Source of the DNA: Candidatus Solirubrobacter pratensis
Lineage (GTDB): Bacteria > Actinomycetota > Thermoleophilia > Solirubrobacterales > Solirubrobacteraceae
Direction: 5' to 3'
Length of the DNA stretch: 64,000 bases
Assembly: GCF_000425945.1 (NCBI RefSeq)
Contig: NZ_AUEK01000003.1
Location: 248,001-312,000 of the forward strand
Shown here one piece after another: positions 24,475-30,683 of the stretch; within the stretch, counting starts at the first letter, position 1, and every line of letters starts with the position of its first letter. The position numbers were made by a program, and so were the translations under genes. Under the pieces are notes generated by a model. That model did not search any database and had not been told where the DNA came from. It worked only from the letters and a program-made list of their open reading frames with translations.

Positions 24475-27057
24475 ATGTCCTCTTCAGACATCATCTCCGG
24501 CGGCAACGTCGAGCCCCGCGGGCTCGAGGAGGAGATGCGCTCCTCCTACCTGGACTACGCCATGTCCGTCATCGTCGGGCGCGCGCTGCCCGACGTCCGC
24601 GACGGCCTGAAGCCGGTCCACCGCCGCGTGCTGTTCTCGATGAACGAGAACGGCCTGCAGCCGAACCGCCCGTACGTAAAGGCGGCCCGCATCGTCGGCG
24701 ACGTCATGGGCAAGTACCACCCGCATGGCGACTCGGCGATCTACGACACGCTCGTGCGCATGGCGCAGGACTTCTCGCTGCGCTATCCGCTCGTCGACGG
24801 CCAGGGCAACTTCGGCTCGATCGACGGCGATCCGGCGGCCGCCATGCGGTACACCGAGGCGCGGCTGGCGGCGATCGCGCGCGAGATGCTGCGCGACCTG
24901 GACTCCGACACGGTCGACTTCGGGCCCAACTACGACGGCCAGGAGCGGGAGCCGCTCGTCCTGCCGGCGCGCTTCCCGAACCTGCTGGTCAGCGGGTCGA
25001 GCGGGATCGCCGTCGGCATGGCGACGAACATCCCGCCGCACAATCTCAAGGAGACGATCGCGGCGACGATCGCCTACATCGAGGACCCGGAGATCGACAC
25101 GCCGGGCCTGATGAAGCACATGCGCGGGCCGGACTTCCCGACCGGCGGCGTGATCCTGGGCCTCTCCGGCATCCGCGACGCCTACGAGACCGGCCGTGGC
25201 CGCGTGCGTGTGCGGGCGACCGCCCACATCGAGCAGATCCGCGGCAACCGCGAGGCGATCGTGGTCACCGAGCTGCCGTACCAGGTCCGCAAGGGCGGCG
25301 ACGGCGGCGTGATCTCGAAGATCGTCGAGCTGGTCAACGAGAAGAAGCTGACCGAGATCTCCGACGTCCAGGACTACACCGACCGCAGCGGCATGCGGAT
25401 CGTGATCGAGCTCAAGCGCGACGCGAACCCGAAGGTCGTGCTCAACAAGCTCTACAAGCACACGCCGATGCAGTCGACATTCGGCGTGAACATGGTCGCG
25501 CTGGTGGACAACGTGCCGCGGCTGCTGCCGCTGCGCTCGGTCATCCACAACTACGTCCAGCACCAGCGCGAGGTCATCGTCCGCCGCTCCAAGCACGAGC
25601 TGCGCGCGCTCGAGCGCTCGGTGCACCGGCTCGAGGGCCTGCTCGTCGCGCTCGATCACCTCGACGAGGTCATCGCGCTGATCCGCGGGTCGGCCGATCG
25701 CGACACCGCCCGCACCGGGCTGATGGAGCGCTTCGAGCTCACGCACATCCAGGCCCAGGCGATCCTCGACCTGCGCCTCCAGCAGCTGACCGCGCTCGAG
25801 GCCGACGCGCTGCGCAAGGAGCACGCGGACAAGATGGAGCGCATCTCCGAGCTGCGCGAGCTGCTCGGCAACGAGGACATGGTGCTCGACCTGATCAAGA
25901 CCGAGCTCGTCGAGATCTCCGACCGCTACGGCGACGAGCGCCGGACCAAGATCGCGCCGTCCGAGGACGACATCGACATCGAGGACCTGATCGCCGACCA
26001 GCAGATGGTCATCTCGATCACGAACTCGGGCTACATCAAGTCGCTCCCGCTCGCCACCTACCGCGCGCAGCGCCGCGGCGGCGTCGGAATCATCGGCATG
26101 GAGATGAAGGACGACGACTTCATCGAGCACCTCTTCGTCTCCTCCACGCACGACTACCTGCTGTTCTTCACGAACCGCGGCAAGGTCTACCGGTCGAAGG
26201 TCTACGACCTGCCGGAGATGAGCCGGACGTCGCGCGGGCGTTACCTCGGCAACGTGCTGCCGCTGCGCGAGGGCGAGCGGGTCCAGTCGGTGCTCGCGAC
26301 GCGCGACTTCGCCGAGGCACCGTACCTGGTGTTCGCGACGCGCAACGGCACGGTAAAGAAGACCGCCTTCCAGGCGTACAACACGCCGATCAAGGCCGAC
26401 GGCATCATCGCGATCAACATCCGCGAGGACGACGAGCTGGTCGCCGTGCGCCGCGTCGACGAGGACGACGAGATCCTGATGGTCTCGCACAACGGCCTCG
26501 CGGTGCGGTTCAAGGAGCAGGACGCGCGCGCGATGGGCCGAGACACCAGCGGTGTGCGCGGCATGGACGTCTCGGGCAAGGGCAACTACGTCATCGCCAT
26601 GGACGTGGCACGTCCCGGCCAGGACCTGCTGGTGGTGACCGAGAACGGCTACGGCAAGCGGACGTCGATCGACGAGTACCGGCTCACGTCGCGCGGCGCC
26701 AAGGGCGTCAAGACGATCGCCTTCACGGAGACCAAGGGCCTGCTCTCGGGCGCGCTCGTCGTGCGCGAGCACGACGACCTGGTGTTCATCTCCCAGAACG
26801 GCATGGTCCAGCGCACGGGCGTGCGCGGGATCAACCGCTACGGGCGCACGTCGCAGGGCGTGCGGGTGATGAACCTGCGCGAGGGCGACGTCGTGTCCGC
26901 GGTGGCCCTGGTGGTCGAGAGCGAGGCCGCGGCGCCGGCCGAGGCGCTCGGCGACGGGCTGCCCGCCGAGCTCGGGGCGCTCATTCCGGAGGACGCGCTC
27001 GAGGGCGTCGAAGAGGTCACCCCGGAGACCGGCGAGGACGTCGACGAAGACGCCTAG
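24475..27057 (+). CDS. gyrA: DNA gyrase subunit A
   Basis: Breakage-reunion subunit, 860 aa. Catalytic Tyr126 in [10 protein letters not shown]; the quinolone-resistance-determining region [10 protein letters not shown] has Ser87 and Asp91, the susceptible-type residues equivalent to E. coli Ser83 and Asp87. The C-terminal beta-pinwheel repeats and the GyrA box region ([10 protein letters not shown]) are present, followed by an acidic tail of about 40 residues. Starts 82 bases after gyrB behind a GC-rich repeat; only AAGA precedes the ATG, so initiation may rely on coupling or on features of the repeat. Confidence 0.97.
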
Positions 27058-27091: not shown

Positions 27092-27097
27092 TAATCT
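27092..27097 (+). promoter_or_regulatory. -10 box of the gyrA-downstream RNA
   Basis: TAATCT, a good TANNNT box 35 bases after the gyrA stop. TTGGTA at 27065-27070 could be a -35, though the 21-base spacing is long. Confidence 0.5.
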
Positions 27098-27129
27098 CGG
27101 TTGCACCAGAGAAAGGGGGTGGTCCGAAG

Positions 27130-27174
27130 TTGAGTGACAGTTCTTGTGGGACCCTGGAGGTGCCCGGCCGCTAG
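27130..27174 (+). CDS. Possible 14-residue leader peptide
   Basis: TTG frame reading MSDSSCGTLEVPGR and stopping at TAG. AAAGGGGGTGGTCC (27112-27125) pairs, counting G-U, with 14 bases of the 16S 3' end, ideally placed 4-10 bases upstream. Either a true leader peptide in the RNA above or a fortuitous frame; the unusually long Shine-Dalgarno favours translation. Confidence 0.35.
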   Translation: MSDSSCGTLEVPGR

Positions 27175-27303
27175 ACCAGCCGGCGCTGGACTCTGCTGGA
27201 AGCGGAATCCACACCGGTGCACCGCCGTCGTCGGTGCCGGAGTTCGTCCCCCCGGCCGATAGAAAGGCTGACGACGGCCGAAAAGTTCAGCAAGTTGTAG
27301 GCG

Positions 27304-27333
27304 AAGCCCCCGGTAGTCGACCGGGGGCTTTCG
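27304..27333 (+). terminator. Intrinsic terminator of the gyrA-downstream RNA
   Basis: AAGCCCCCGGT (27304-27314) pairs perfectly with ACCGGGGGCTT (27320-27330) around a 5-base loop, followed by TCG; stem of 11 bp. Confidence 0.85.
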
Positions 27334-27504
27334 TCGTTAAGGAGCGCGCCGGGCGGCAAGGCGCGGCGGCAAGGCGCGCGGCCGCGCGATCAACTTCCGG
27401 CGCCGACTAGGAGCGGCCATCGGGGACGCCGGCGCGGCGGGAGTTCTCGCCCCCCGGGCGATAACTCCCACCGGAACGGCCCGAGACGAGCCGCTAGGCG
27501 AGTC
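27334..27504. other. Non-coding gap with repeat copy F
   Basis: Between the RNA terminator and the HNH gene stop. It has short direct repeats (GGGCGGCAAGGCGCG, GGCGGCAAGGCGCG) and, at 27439-27469, a dispersed-repeat core: GGGAGTTCTCGCCC facing GGGCGATAACTCCC. No gene is supported here. Confidence 0.6.
27439..27469. repeat. Dispersed repeat core, copy F
   Basis: GGGAGTT-C-TCGCCC / GGGCGA-TAACTCCC dyad with a CCC centre, the same core as copies A-C. Unlike those it is not placed before a start codon but beyond the 3' end of the HNH gene. Confidence 0.7.
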
Positions 27505-28107
27505 TTAGGCCGCTTCCGGCAGGTACTGGCGCCAGGTCGCCGGGATCGTCGGCGACGCGAGCTGGATGAAGATGTGGGCGCCCGGCGTGCGGGGCTTGGC
27601 GCGCGGGTGCATGTTGATCTGATGCGGGAGCTTGTCGGCCTTGCGCCGGTTGCATGGCGCGCAGGACGCGACGATGTTGTCCCACCCGGACCCGCCGCCC
27701 TTGGAGCGCGGGATCACGTGGTCGACCGTCAGCGAGGTCCTGGCGCCGCAGTACTGGCACTGCCAGCCGTCGCGGGCGAAGACCGCGCGGCGCGTGATCT
27801 TGCGCTTGTGCGTGTCGCGCGGGATGCGGACGTAGGTGACCAGCCGGATCACGACCGGGCGCGGGAGCGAGCCCGTCGCCCAGTGCAGGTCCTGCGTGCC
27901 GATCTCGACGACCTCGGCCTTGTCCTTGAGCAGCAGGACCGTGGCACGACGGACCGTGCACACGTTGATCGGCTCGAACGTGGCGTTGAGCACCAGCACA
28001 CGACCACCACTCCAACGGCTGCTTGAGCCGTCGAACGTAGGTCCGTGCCGCGGGTGATCGTCGAGCGGCACGGACCCCAGTGGGCCTGGGGGCACAGCGG
28101 ATGCCAC
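27505..28107 (-). CDS. HNH endonuclease family protein
   Basis: Predicted nuclease of 200 aa of the conserved actinobacterial/cyanobacterial HNH group. Zinc knuckle CQYCGA and CAPCNRRK flank the catalytic LTVDHVIPRSKGG (His in DHV) and WDNIVASC. The first conserved segment VLVLNATFEPINV starts at about residue 38. GTG at 28107 is supported by a TACACT box 8 bases upstream (leaderless spacing); an internal GTG before VLVLN with GGAG upstream is an alternative giving about 163 aa. Members are housekeeping-like single genes of unknown role rather than restriction enzymes. Confidence 0.85.
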   Translation of the reverse strand: MASAVPPGPLGSVPLDDHPRHGPTFDGSSSRWSGGRVLVLNATFEPINVCTVRRATVLLLKDKAEVVEIGTQDLHWATGSLPRPVVIRLVTYVRIPRDTHKRKITRRAVFARDGWQCQYCGARTSLTVDHVIPRSKGGGSGWDNIVASCAPCNRRKADKLPHQINMHPRAKPRTPGAHIFIQLASPTIPATWRQYLPEAA

Positions 28108-29552: not shown

Positions 29553-30683
29553 CTACCCGCGCTTGAAGAGCGCCGGGTAGGACGACTTGTTGTTGTCGGT
29601 CTTCTTCTCGCCCGGGACGGGGGCGACGGTGACGCGGATGTTGGCCGAGGTGTTCAGCGGCGGCGTGCGGTTGAGCTTGAGCTGGGCGGTCGCCTTCGCG
29701 CCCTTGGCGATGGAGTCGACCGTCGTGCTGATGGTGATCGGCGAGCTGCTCTCGCTCTCGATCCGCAGCGTCACCTTGACGTTGAACTCGTCGTTGTCGC
29801 CCTGGTTCATGAAGGCGACCTGGAACGTCATGCCCGGCTGGTAGGTGATCTGGTTGGGCGTGCCCGGCTGCAGCGTCTGGTTGCCCACCGACGTCGAGCT
29901 CACGCCGGTGCCGTGCAGGCCGGGGCCGGTCGGCTGCGGCTTGCCGCCGGAGCTGCCGTTCGACGCGCCGCTCGTGAGCTGCTGATCGAGCTTGGAGGCG
30001 ATCACCTGCTGCGAGAGCCAGTCGACGTTGGGCAGGAAGGTGGAGCTCGTGATCGGGGCGGCGATGCTGCGCTTGGCCAGCGCCGCCTTGATGAACGGGA
30101 TCACGCGCGCCTGGTAGAGCACGTCGGACGCGTTGAACGCCGCCATCTGGCCGGCCATCCGCTTGATCGCGGCGTCCGCCTGCTCGCCTGAGTCCCCCAG
30201 CGCGGTGCGGATGTTCTCGGCGATCGACTCGAGTCCGTTCTTGCGCAGCTCCAGCGCGATCAGCAGCGACTGCTGCGCCGGCACCATGTCGTCCGGGACG
30301 CTCAGCTCCTGGCCCTGCTGGAGCGTCCGCTCGGCCTGGACCCGCAGGCTGTTGATGTTCGTCTGCAGCTCCTGCCCGGACGGCTGGCCCTGGCCGAAGA
30401 GCTTGAAGAACTCGCCGCCGGTCTGCTGCGACTCGCCGGCGAGCGCGCTGACTTTGCTGTTGTAGTCCTTGAGCGCGTTCTCGGCCTGGCGACCGCGGCA
30501 GCTCGACACGAACAGTCCGAGGAGGACGACGAGCAGCACGAGACCGAGCCCGAGGAGGGCTCGGCGGATGTAGATCGTCTGTGAATCGGTGGCGGCGCCT
30601 CCGGCCGGACTGCCGCGCCGCGGCCGCGGCCGCCGGCGTTGAGTCGTCCGAAGGGGCTCGTCGTCCTCGTCGAAGAAGGACAC
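29553..30683 (-). CDS. Anchored secreted protein of unknown function
   Basis: 376 aa. A basic cytoplasmic N-terminus (RRRPRPRRG) is followed by one membrane span (LLGLGLVLLVVLLGLFV, residues about 43-59) and a large extracytoplasmic part: a helical region to about residue 230 with Gln/Asn-rich coiled-coil character, a Gly/Ser linker, and a C-terminal beta-rich domain (FQVAFMNQGDNDEFNVKVTL) resembling a CARDB/Ig-like fold. Such proteins occur beside wall-synthesis genes but I cannot name a family. GTG at 30683 has CAGGAG six bases upstream. Divergent from the kinase gene. Confidence 0.75.
   Translation of the reverse strand: MSFFDEDDEPLRTTQRRRPRPRRGSPAGGAATDSQTIYIRRALLGLGLVLLVVLLGLFVSSCRGRQAENALKDYNSKVSALAGESQQTGGEFFKLFGQGQPSGQELQTNINSLRVQAERTLQQGQELSVPDDMVPAQQSLLIALELRKNGLESIAENIRTALGDSGEQADAAIKRMAGQMAAFNASDVLYQARVIPFIKAALAKRSIAAPITSSTFLPNVDWLSQQVIASKLDQQLTSGASNGSSGGKPQPTGPGLHGTGVSSTSVGNQTLQPGTPNQITYQPGMTFQVAFMNQGDNDEFNVKVTLRIESESSSPITISTTVDSIAKGAKATAQLKLNRTPPLNTSANIRVTVAPVPGEKKTDNNKSSYPALFKRG

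Follow-up and report, generated by a model that had tools for sequence, protein, structure and literature searches.

A candidate gene for a translated, structured small RNA behind gyrA in Candidatus Solirubrobacter pratensis, a putative divergent orthologue of Ms_IGR-5

Introduction

What occupies the interval behind gyrA in Candidatus Solirubrobacter pratensis, and does it belong to a neighbouring gene or act on its own? The window, by which we mean the whole stretch of 64,000 nucleotides analysed here (contig NZ_AUEK01000003.1), contains gyrA up to position 27057, followed by a candidate small-RNA gene at 27105-27333 on the plus strand; the next gene (27505-28107, minus strand, convergent) encodes an HNH protein. 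The original prediction for this interval, made from the sequence itself, described an autonomous structured RNA with a short translated frame and mutually exclusive hairpins, suggested the logic of an attenuator or a dual-function sRNA, and matched it to no known RNA class. We show below that an RNA family, Ms_IGR-5, aligns to it. In the accessible parts of the published accounts, Ms_IGR-5 is a small RNA without assigned function.

Materials and methods

Homologous loci were numbered in the order of their collection. The series L001-L060 came from BLAST and Rfam searches, L061-L090 and L131-L250 were found with patterns demanding both a Shine-Dalgarno sequence (SD) and GAGGTG, and L091-L130 are 40 true-looking places chosen by eye from the pattern-scan list. 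Altogether 279 loci gave 269 parsable ones, which were distinct in their first 150 nt in 243 cases. Although the parser gave preference to a stop near codon 5, it had only 272 candidates to choose from in the 269 loci. A stop at codon 5 is absent in nine loci (L069, L073, L074, L085, L087, L139, L202, and L096 and L097, in which the frame differs), leaving 234 loci; counting identical SD-to-stop stretches once gives 210. For the PK1 complement test, non-actinobacterial, short and repeated rows were removed, which left 218 sequences; seven of these could not be parsed in the end-pair test, leaving 211. An earlier loop parser had favoured PK1 pairing; in the end-pair test loops were picked by hairpin and CACC only, regardless of pairing, and GTC was required.

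Alignment A1 comprises 57 of the first 60 loci (L007, L037 and L057 excluded), and the covariance model R1 was built from 57 sequences. The helices were scored together in 47 motif-chosen sequences: the window, 39 members of its class (assigned by kinship code or name), three further members of the phylum, one of Acidimicrobiia and three without class.

Results

Transcription signals and neighbours of the locus

Judged by comparison with its homologues, the stretch 27105-27333 has the appearance of an independent small-RNA gene whose product would measure about 230 nt (Table 1). The -10 box TAATCT of the original prediction is present, and its place is conserved: TANNNT lies 17-18 nt upstream of the SD in 157 of 233 loci and anywhere between -30 and -8 in 175 of them, compared with 11/233 in an equal control window. 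Position -5 from the SD is A in 90% of the 233 loci. The conserved -10 box and this A together indicate that the RNA probably begins about five bases upstream of the SD. At the other end, the 11-bp terminator was confirmed as a hairpin with a weak U tract; a hairpin of at least 9 bp occurs downstream in 28/28 tested loci of the window's class and in 3/28 of a control region further downstream. Homologues are reported, in the accessible parts of the respective papers, to give a transcript in RNA-seq of S. lividans (PMC8079986), where the copy is SLIV_16488, a transcription unit in S. avermitilis (PMC8780764) and an overlapping transcript in M. smegmatis (PMC10454040).

Table 1 Features of the candidate small-RNA gene (window coordinates)
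Feature	Position	Strand	Basis
-10 box TAATCT	27092..27097	+	conserved TANNNT before SD
Predicted transcription start, A of ACCAG	27105	+	conserved A, 8 nt past -10 box
SD1, 16-nt Shine-Dalgarno AGAAAGGGGGTGGTCC	27110..27125	+	pairs with 16S tail
Short frame (sORF), TTG start, 14 sense codons, TAG stop	27130..27174	+	start/stop conservation in homologues
PK1 5' strand GGGACC, inside sORF	27148..27153	+	covaries with 27245-27250; 5/6 pairs form in window
GAGGTG, internal SD-like element, 9 nt upstream of stop codon	27157..27162	+	near-invariant in homologues
H2 5' strand, last sORF codons	27159..27167	+	pairs with 27214-27223
H4 5' strand GCTGGAC	27185..27191	+	pairs with 27285-27291
H2 3' strand CCGGTGCACC, one base bulged	27214..27223	+	pairs with 27159-27167
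H5 5' strand	27224..27235	+	12 bp with 27267-27278, G.U included
Inner hairpin 5' strand GCCGG	27236..27240	+	93.4% of cells paired in 47 sequences
PK1 3' strand CGTCCC, hairpin loop	27245..27250	+	covariation
Inner hairpin 3' strand CCGGC	27252..27256	+	pairs with 27236-27240
H5 3' strand	27267..27278	+	12 bp with 27224-27235, G.U included
H4 3' strand GTTCAGC	27285..27291	+	pairs with 27185-27191
Terminator hairpin, 11 bp	27304..27333	+	sequence and hairpin in relatives

That the RNA forms an autonomous unit with no gene following on its strand, as had been claimed, is supported by the downstream sequence, in which no recognisable same-strand gene precedes 30639. The three long same-strand open reading frames tested before this point (at 27574, 28080 and 29232) had no Pfam match and lie antisense to the HNH gene, the genes for prephenate dehydratase and a DUF4446 protein, and further minus-strand frames; the first tested same-strand frame with a Pfam match encodes a protein kinase at 30639. 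A near-perfect inverted repeat at 27439-27469 (GGGAGTT..AACTCCC with inner CGCCC/GGGCG, found by eye) lies just beyond the 3' end of the HNH gene and is probably the terminator of that convergent gene.

Origin of the RNA as part of gyrA (its 3' UTR) would fit the 25 of 32 loci of the window's class in which gyrA ends upstream, a count in which one genome figures twice and some contigs end early. However, the RNA has its own -10 box, and elsewhere its neighbours are others: outside the window's class a minus-strand gene with a GCV_T folate-binding domain lies upstream in L031, L133, L113 and L053, and ligA is found beside L052. The alternative of an antisense control of the HNH gene has to cope with an RNA that ends about 170 nt before that gene, and we give this reading, in either form, hardly any credence. 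The four copies with a GCV_T neighbour fall in separate clades.

A classical attenuator or leader of a downstream gene would explain the leader frame, the competing structures and the terminator hairpin, and some copies do stand before genes, namely rpmE (L208, and L213 as judged by the start of the encoded protein), rplM (L194) and a peptidase M24 gene (L195). At the window locus nothing lies downstream on the strand that could be attenuated, so that the attenuator logic of the original prediction is not supported here. Moreover, the HNH gene is convergent in 21 of the 32 loci of the window's class searched (one genome counted twice, some contigs ending early), and the neighbours differ between clades. 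We therefore regard this explanation as highly improbable. Among the loci compared, no neighbour recurs throughout, and this speaks for an independent gene.

Relationship to Ms_IGR-5 and distribution in Actinobacteriota

At the gathering threshold, Rfam reports only a tRNA in the window. Below it, RF02471 (Ms_IGR-5) alone stands out from eight other, weak matches. Contrary to the view that the RNA belongs to no known class, this family aligns over its full length (model positions 1-184 of 184) to 27105-27286. The score there is 28.6 bits, below the curated cut-off of 45, and no other place in the genome matches at E ≤ 0.01. The gap is bridged by relatives: in genome G273 of the same family the homologous locus (L054), which stands together with the window in alignment A2, scores 45.5 bits and thus lies above the cut-off, and the 60 loci of the BLAST and Rfam series link the window to RF02471 as intermediates. 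BLAST with the DNA of the window gave matches in 50/61 genomes, its own included. Through these intermediates we place the RNA of the window in the Ms_IGR-5 family, as a divergent form that the Rfam threshold misses.

In 296 genomes of Actinobacteriota, RF02471 has a match at E ≤ 0.01 in 68 and above the cut-off in 25. The model R1 reached 142/396 Actinobacteriota genomes at E ≤ 0.001, with one match in each and two in G279 only, and covarying pairs were found in PK1 and H2 (see below). Within the window's class, Thermoleophilia, under which named records with the same form of the RNA are also listed, 83 of 149 genomes have an R1 match at E ≤ 0.01, G509 and G534 having two; because many genomes are drafts, the lack of a match does not prove absence from a genome.

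A conserved short frame with a fixed end

The predicted frame of 14 codons with TTG start was confirmed, and its homologues carry strong signs of translation. The product in the window would be MSDSSCGTLEVPGR, in which no regulatory codon run occurs. After the SD, an in-frame AUG or near-cognate start is present in all 210 distinct SD-to-stop homologues kept, at +2 to +13 past the SD and without intervening stop in 207 of them. In the two other frames starts occur in 13/210 and 115/210, the latter in the frame shifted by two. The start codons are ATG (78), TTG (71), GTG (17), CTG (21), ATC (15), ATA (3), ATT (2) and ACG (3), where CTG, ATC, ATA and ATT were counted only in sequences with no standard start and ACG (L051, L154, L217) was read from the listing. 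Standard starts are mostly found at +4 to +6 (148/166), compared with +2 or +3 for 43 of the 44 near-cognate ones (CUG, AUC, AUA, AUU, ACG). The length is 12-15 codons in 209/210 homologues, and the frame is kept although the distance from the SD to GAG spans all residues modulo 3 (111, 66 and 33 cases).

Conservation of the SD and of GAGGTG is quoted from L001-L060 only, since most later homologues were found with patterns demanding both: in these 60 loci, whose searches did not demand the motif, 58 have GAGGTG and two GAGGGG. Of the 243 distinct loci, 234 have a stop codon exactly 15 nt from the first base of GAGGTG; among the 210 homologues it is TAG in 171, TGA in 26 and TAA in 13.

These data bear on the possibility of a bifunctional sRNA whose peptide of 12-15 residues is itself active. 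The conserved frame, the shared C-terminal EV and some codons that vary mostly at the third position are in its favour. Yet among the 11 variable codons the most variable position, by entropy, is the first in four, the second in four and the third in three; the N-terminal halves of the peptide differ between clades, and EV is fixed as the nucleotides GAGGTG. In addition, by our own reading of the sequences, L096 and L097 have GAGGTG in another frame with start and stop seemingly kept. Of the dual function originally suggested, the frame is supported; an active peptide is not, and we consider one very unlikely. The comparison suggests that the frame is conserved and the peptide mostly not. Start, stop and spacing are kept and codon entropy is mixed, so that, in our judgement, selection seems to favour translation to a set end point and not a particular peptide. 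Ribosome-protected reads on MS_IGR-5 are reported for M. abscessus and M. smegmatis in the accessible part of PMC4974804.

An extended Shine-Dalgarno sequence

The original prediction had placed a 14-base SD at 27112-27125. The extended SD is indeed present, with a length of 16 nt instead of 14: all 16 positions of SD1 can pair with the genome's own 16S tail GGATCACCTCCTTTCT, two of them as G.U. When the 6.6-Mb genome was scanned with the 16S-tail pattern at up to three mismatches, 15 matches were obtained, namely the 16S gene, SD1 with two mismatches (both G.U) and 13 sites with three, compared with three matches for the reversed control pattern. SD1 is hence the only site outside the 16S gene with two mismatches or fewer. 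The predicted duplex energy of -26.9 kcal/mol compares with -17.7 kcal/mol for a classic SD. If so, the RNA should bind ribosomes unusually tightly. In predicted folds SD1 is not clearly exposed, its unpaired probability being 0.29 versus 0.26 with the remainder shuffled (real value higher in 34 of 60 cases), a comparison that is uninformative. As SD1 and GAGGTG are nearly invariant, covariation cannot test pairings in which they take part.

Pseudoknotted fold interwoven with the frame

The 5' strand of PK1 consists of the bases nine to four upstream of GAGGTG, and its partner is a hairpin loop about 95 nt downstream. Among 218 sequences an exact 6-mer complement is found in 80 (shuffled mean 30.3, maximum 44) and a complement of at least five in six in 188 (shuffled mean 124.1, maximum 142), and at five other offsets there was no excess. 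The helix is imperfect: the 5' strands AGGACT and AGGACG, though common, have an exact partner in only 2/34 and 0/8 cases. In the end-pair test the two end pairs are Watson-Crick in 100/211 sequences each, against shuffled maxima of 73 and 75, and the next pair in 177/211 against 163; since the parser required GTC, the central pairs carry little information. At the first pair GC, CG, AT and TA all occur, and 111/211 sequences are non-Watson-Crick there.

H2 joins the last codons to a strand past the stop that reads CCGGnCACC or GCAGUCACC, with a mean of 9.24 pairs compared with a shuffled maximum of 8.63; a compensatory GGGGC/GCCCC was seen by eye in L006 and L007. When PK1, H2, H4 and the inner hairpin were scored together in the 47 sequences, 90.6% of cells were paired and 11 pairs had double changes, versus 5.7 after shuffling, with none of 500 shuffles reaching this value; as the shuffles ignore relatedness, the support lies in the spread of pair types across clades. 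A slide control at +1 gave 12 such pairs, but only 49.8% of cells were paired and the covariation score was halved. The outer five pairs of H4 form in 94.8% of cells, the inner two weakly (56%). The comparative fold is pseudoknotted, with both H2 and PK1 crossing H4.

The predicted 9-bp pairing of 27224-27232 with 27270-27278 was recovered in a conserved helix, H5, which extends to 12 bp in the window and has a mean longest helix of 7.23 (shuffled 5.49, maximum 5.89). The hairpin 27214-27240, thought to exclude it, is not conserved: it has seven of ten pairs in the window itself and four to six of ten in 39/47 sequences. It was rejected as a conserved competitor; the conserved competition is that of the translated codons with PK1 and H2. 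Folding of the single sequence was unremarkable (z -1.14, 28/200 shuffles at least as stable), and a consensus scan called neither a sigma-70 promoter nor a terminator at the RNA locus. The case rests, for these reasons, on comparison.

Copies in records from other phyla

A motif scan of named genomes gave at least 120 stretches, at least 106 in Actinomycetota and at least 14 in others. Among the 14 others listed, 12 have the frame with the usual stop, of which eight are labelled Acidobacteriota, two Myxococcota, one Zixibacteria and one Sumerlaeota. R1 aligns over the full length to all 12, with 64.2 bits for the Zixibacteria copy, 59.1 for Sumerlaeota, 47.9 and 37.7 for Myxococcota and 19.2 to 35.4 for six distinct acidobacterial copies. 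The other two labelled Acidobacteriota (L161, L250) reach 103-104 bits; they are probably mislabelled and resemble Acidimicrobiia. The Zixibacteria copy also passes the RF02471 cut-off with 55.9 bits. Of 18 further loci only L031, L041 and L153 reach the Rfam gathering threshold, and the remaining copies tested, drawn from Acidobacteriota, Myxococcota, Sumerlaeota and a number of groups within the actinobacteria, lie below it.

L202, from a record of Truepera (Deinococcota), has SD and GAGGTG with no stop at the usual place and 44.6 bits with R1, and L139, from a doubtful alphaproteobacterial record of Boseongicola, has SD and GAGGTG without the frame and 26.5 bits, both over the full length; they are possibly diverged copies. 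The kinship of the acidobacterial copies is weakest, because L139 without frame and L202 reach such scores and the search pattern demanded SD and GAGGTG. Each non-actinobacterial copy comes from one contig of one record, and those with a title are marked as MAG, so that contamination is possible. On this comparison, copies in the Zixibacteria, Sumerlaeota and Myxococcota records are likely, and those in Acidobacteriota are less well supported. Three of the six acidobacterial copies precede ribosomal-protein genes (L208 and L213 rpmE, L194 rplM) with a terminator-like hairpin between. By eye, the non-actinobacterial copies L140, L147, L153 and L167 look minimal: the CACC strand is followed closely by a T-rich terminator, and a distinct PK1 hairpin is not seen. 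The viral contigs scanned with the motif gave no match.

Discussion

With slightly better than even confidence we propose that the locus encodes, as a gene of its own, a structured RNA of about 230 nt that is translated, has a translation-gated regulatory role and is orthologous to, though diverged from, Ms_IGR-5. The codons of the frame form the 5' strands of PK1 and H2, and ribosome and fold should therefore exclude each other. From the frame lengths, PK1 begins +13 to +22 from the start codon, and the leading edge of an initiating ribosome falls near this distance. A ribosome recruited by SD1 would thus stand with its leading edge near PK1 at initiation and, when translating, would open PK1 and then H2. 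It would then pause at the stop codon, where GAGGUG, spaced from the P site like an SD, could act as one for this ribosome: the last sense codon starts 6 nt after GAGGUG, and an equal distance separates the SD1 core GGUG from the +2 starts. Depending on whether a ribosome passes or fails to do so, the 3' domain would switch between a pseudoknotted state and one in which the CACC and loop strands are free. Such a translation-switched 3' domain makes a trans effect gated by translation the likely output; an effect in trans or on the ribosome, rather than the peptide or control of a downstream gene, is what we infer.

An effect on the ribosome could also be the whole function, with the RNA holding ribosomal subunits and having no base-paired target. 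SD1 would then anchor the 30S subunit, weak starts would slow initiation, PK1 would block the entry side and GAGGUG would hold the ribosome at the stop. The strength of the 16-bp SD duplex, the best in the genome, the near-cognate starts close behind it in 44/210 homologues, the fixed spacing of GAGGTG and stop, and the acidobacterial copies in front of ribosomal-protein genes all fit such a trap. However, the RNA is present in single copy, and a trap would not need a conserved 3' domain beyond PK1 and H2; we consider it possible but rather unlikely.

A broader generalisation, which we find doubtful, is that of a phylum-crossing class of ribosome-docked RNAs, in which SD1 would capture the 30S subunit, codons would double as pseudoknot strands, near-cognate starts would be sensitive to IF3 proofreading and a second SD would park the ribosome at the stop. 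If true, such RNAs would be direct sensors or buffers of free ribosomes or of initiation quality, with the state of the fold as read-out.

Ms_IGR-5 as an Rfam family was known before. New are, on the strength of the alignments, the candidate translated frame, its near-cognate starts and its weave with PK1 and H2. The literature searched, which covered part of the field and lacked most subscription journals, held no description of the frame, the near-cognate starts or PK1 of this RNA, and searches of it for an extended SD, a 30S-sequestering sRNA or a pseudoknot gave nothing on this RNA. The comparison says that Ms_IGR-5 is translated and identifies its frame, which it shows to be part of a pseudoknotted fold kept in much of the phylum Actinobacteriota and probably beyond it. 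It turns an orphan RNA into one with directly testable predictions on the start codon, the stop spacing and swaps of PK1 and H2. With its conserved use of AUC, AUA, AUU, CUG and ACG starts after a 16-nt SD, the RNA would offer a natural setting in which to study start-codon proofreading.

The features of RF02471 shared by the window RNA are the SD, the frame end GAGGTG..TAG, the CACC strand downstream, the hairpin with the GTCC loop and autonomy. In contrast, the structure line of the family in Rfam shows no pseudoknot, and H4 is an addition of the window's class, whose copies mostly sit behind gyrA. Several well-known systems resemble the RNA in part. In the entrapment of rpsO, ribosomal protein S15 stabilises a pseudoknot and controls its own mRNA; a pseudoknot bordering the ribosome loading site is common to both, whereas the window RNA has no downstream gene and no known protein. 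Dual-function sRNAs such as SgrS and RNAIII encode conserved peptides and have known targets, and they share with our candidate the short frame within a regulatory RNA, but its peptide is mostly not conserved. The cysteine attenuators of actinobacteria and other leader-peptide attenuators precede the genes that they regulate and carry regulatory codon runs; here too a short frame overlaps competing structures, although the window has neither a regulated gene downstream nor a codon run. In prfB, finally, an internal SD lies upstream of a stop codon within the frame, and GAGGTG would be the corresponding SD-like element before the stop codon inside the frame of the window RNA.
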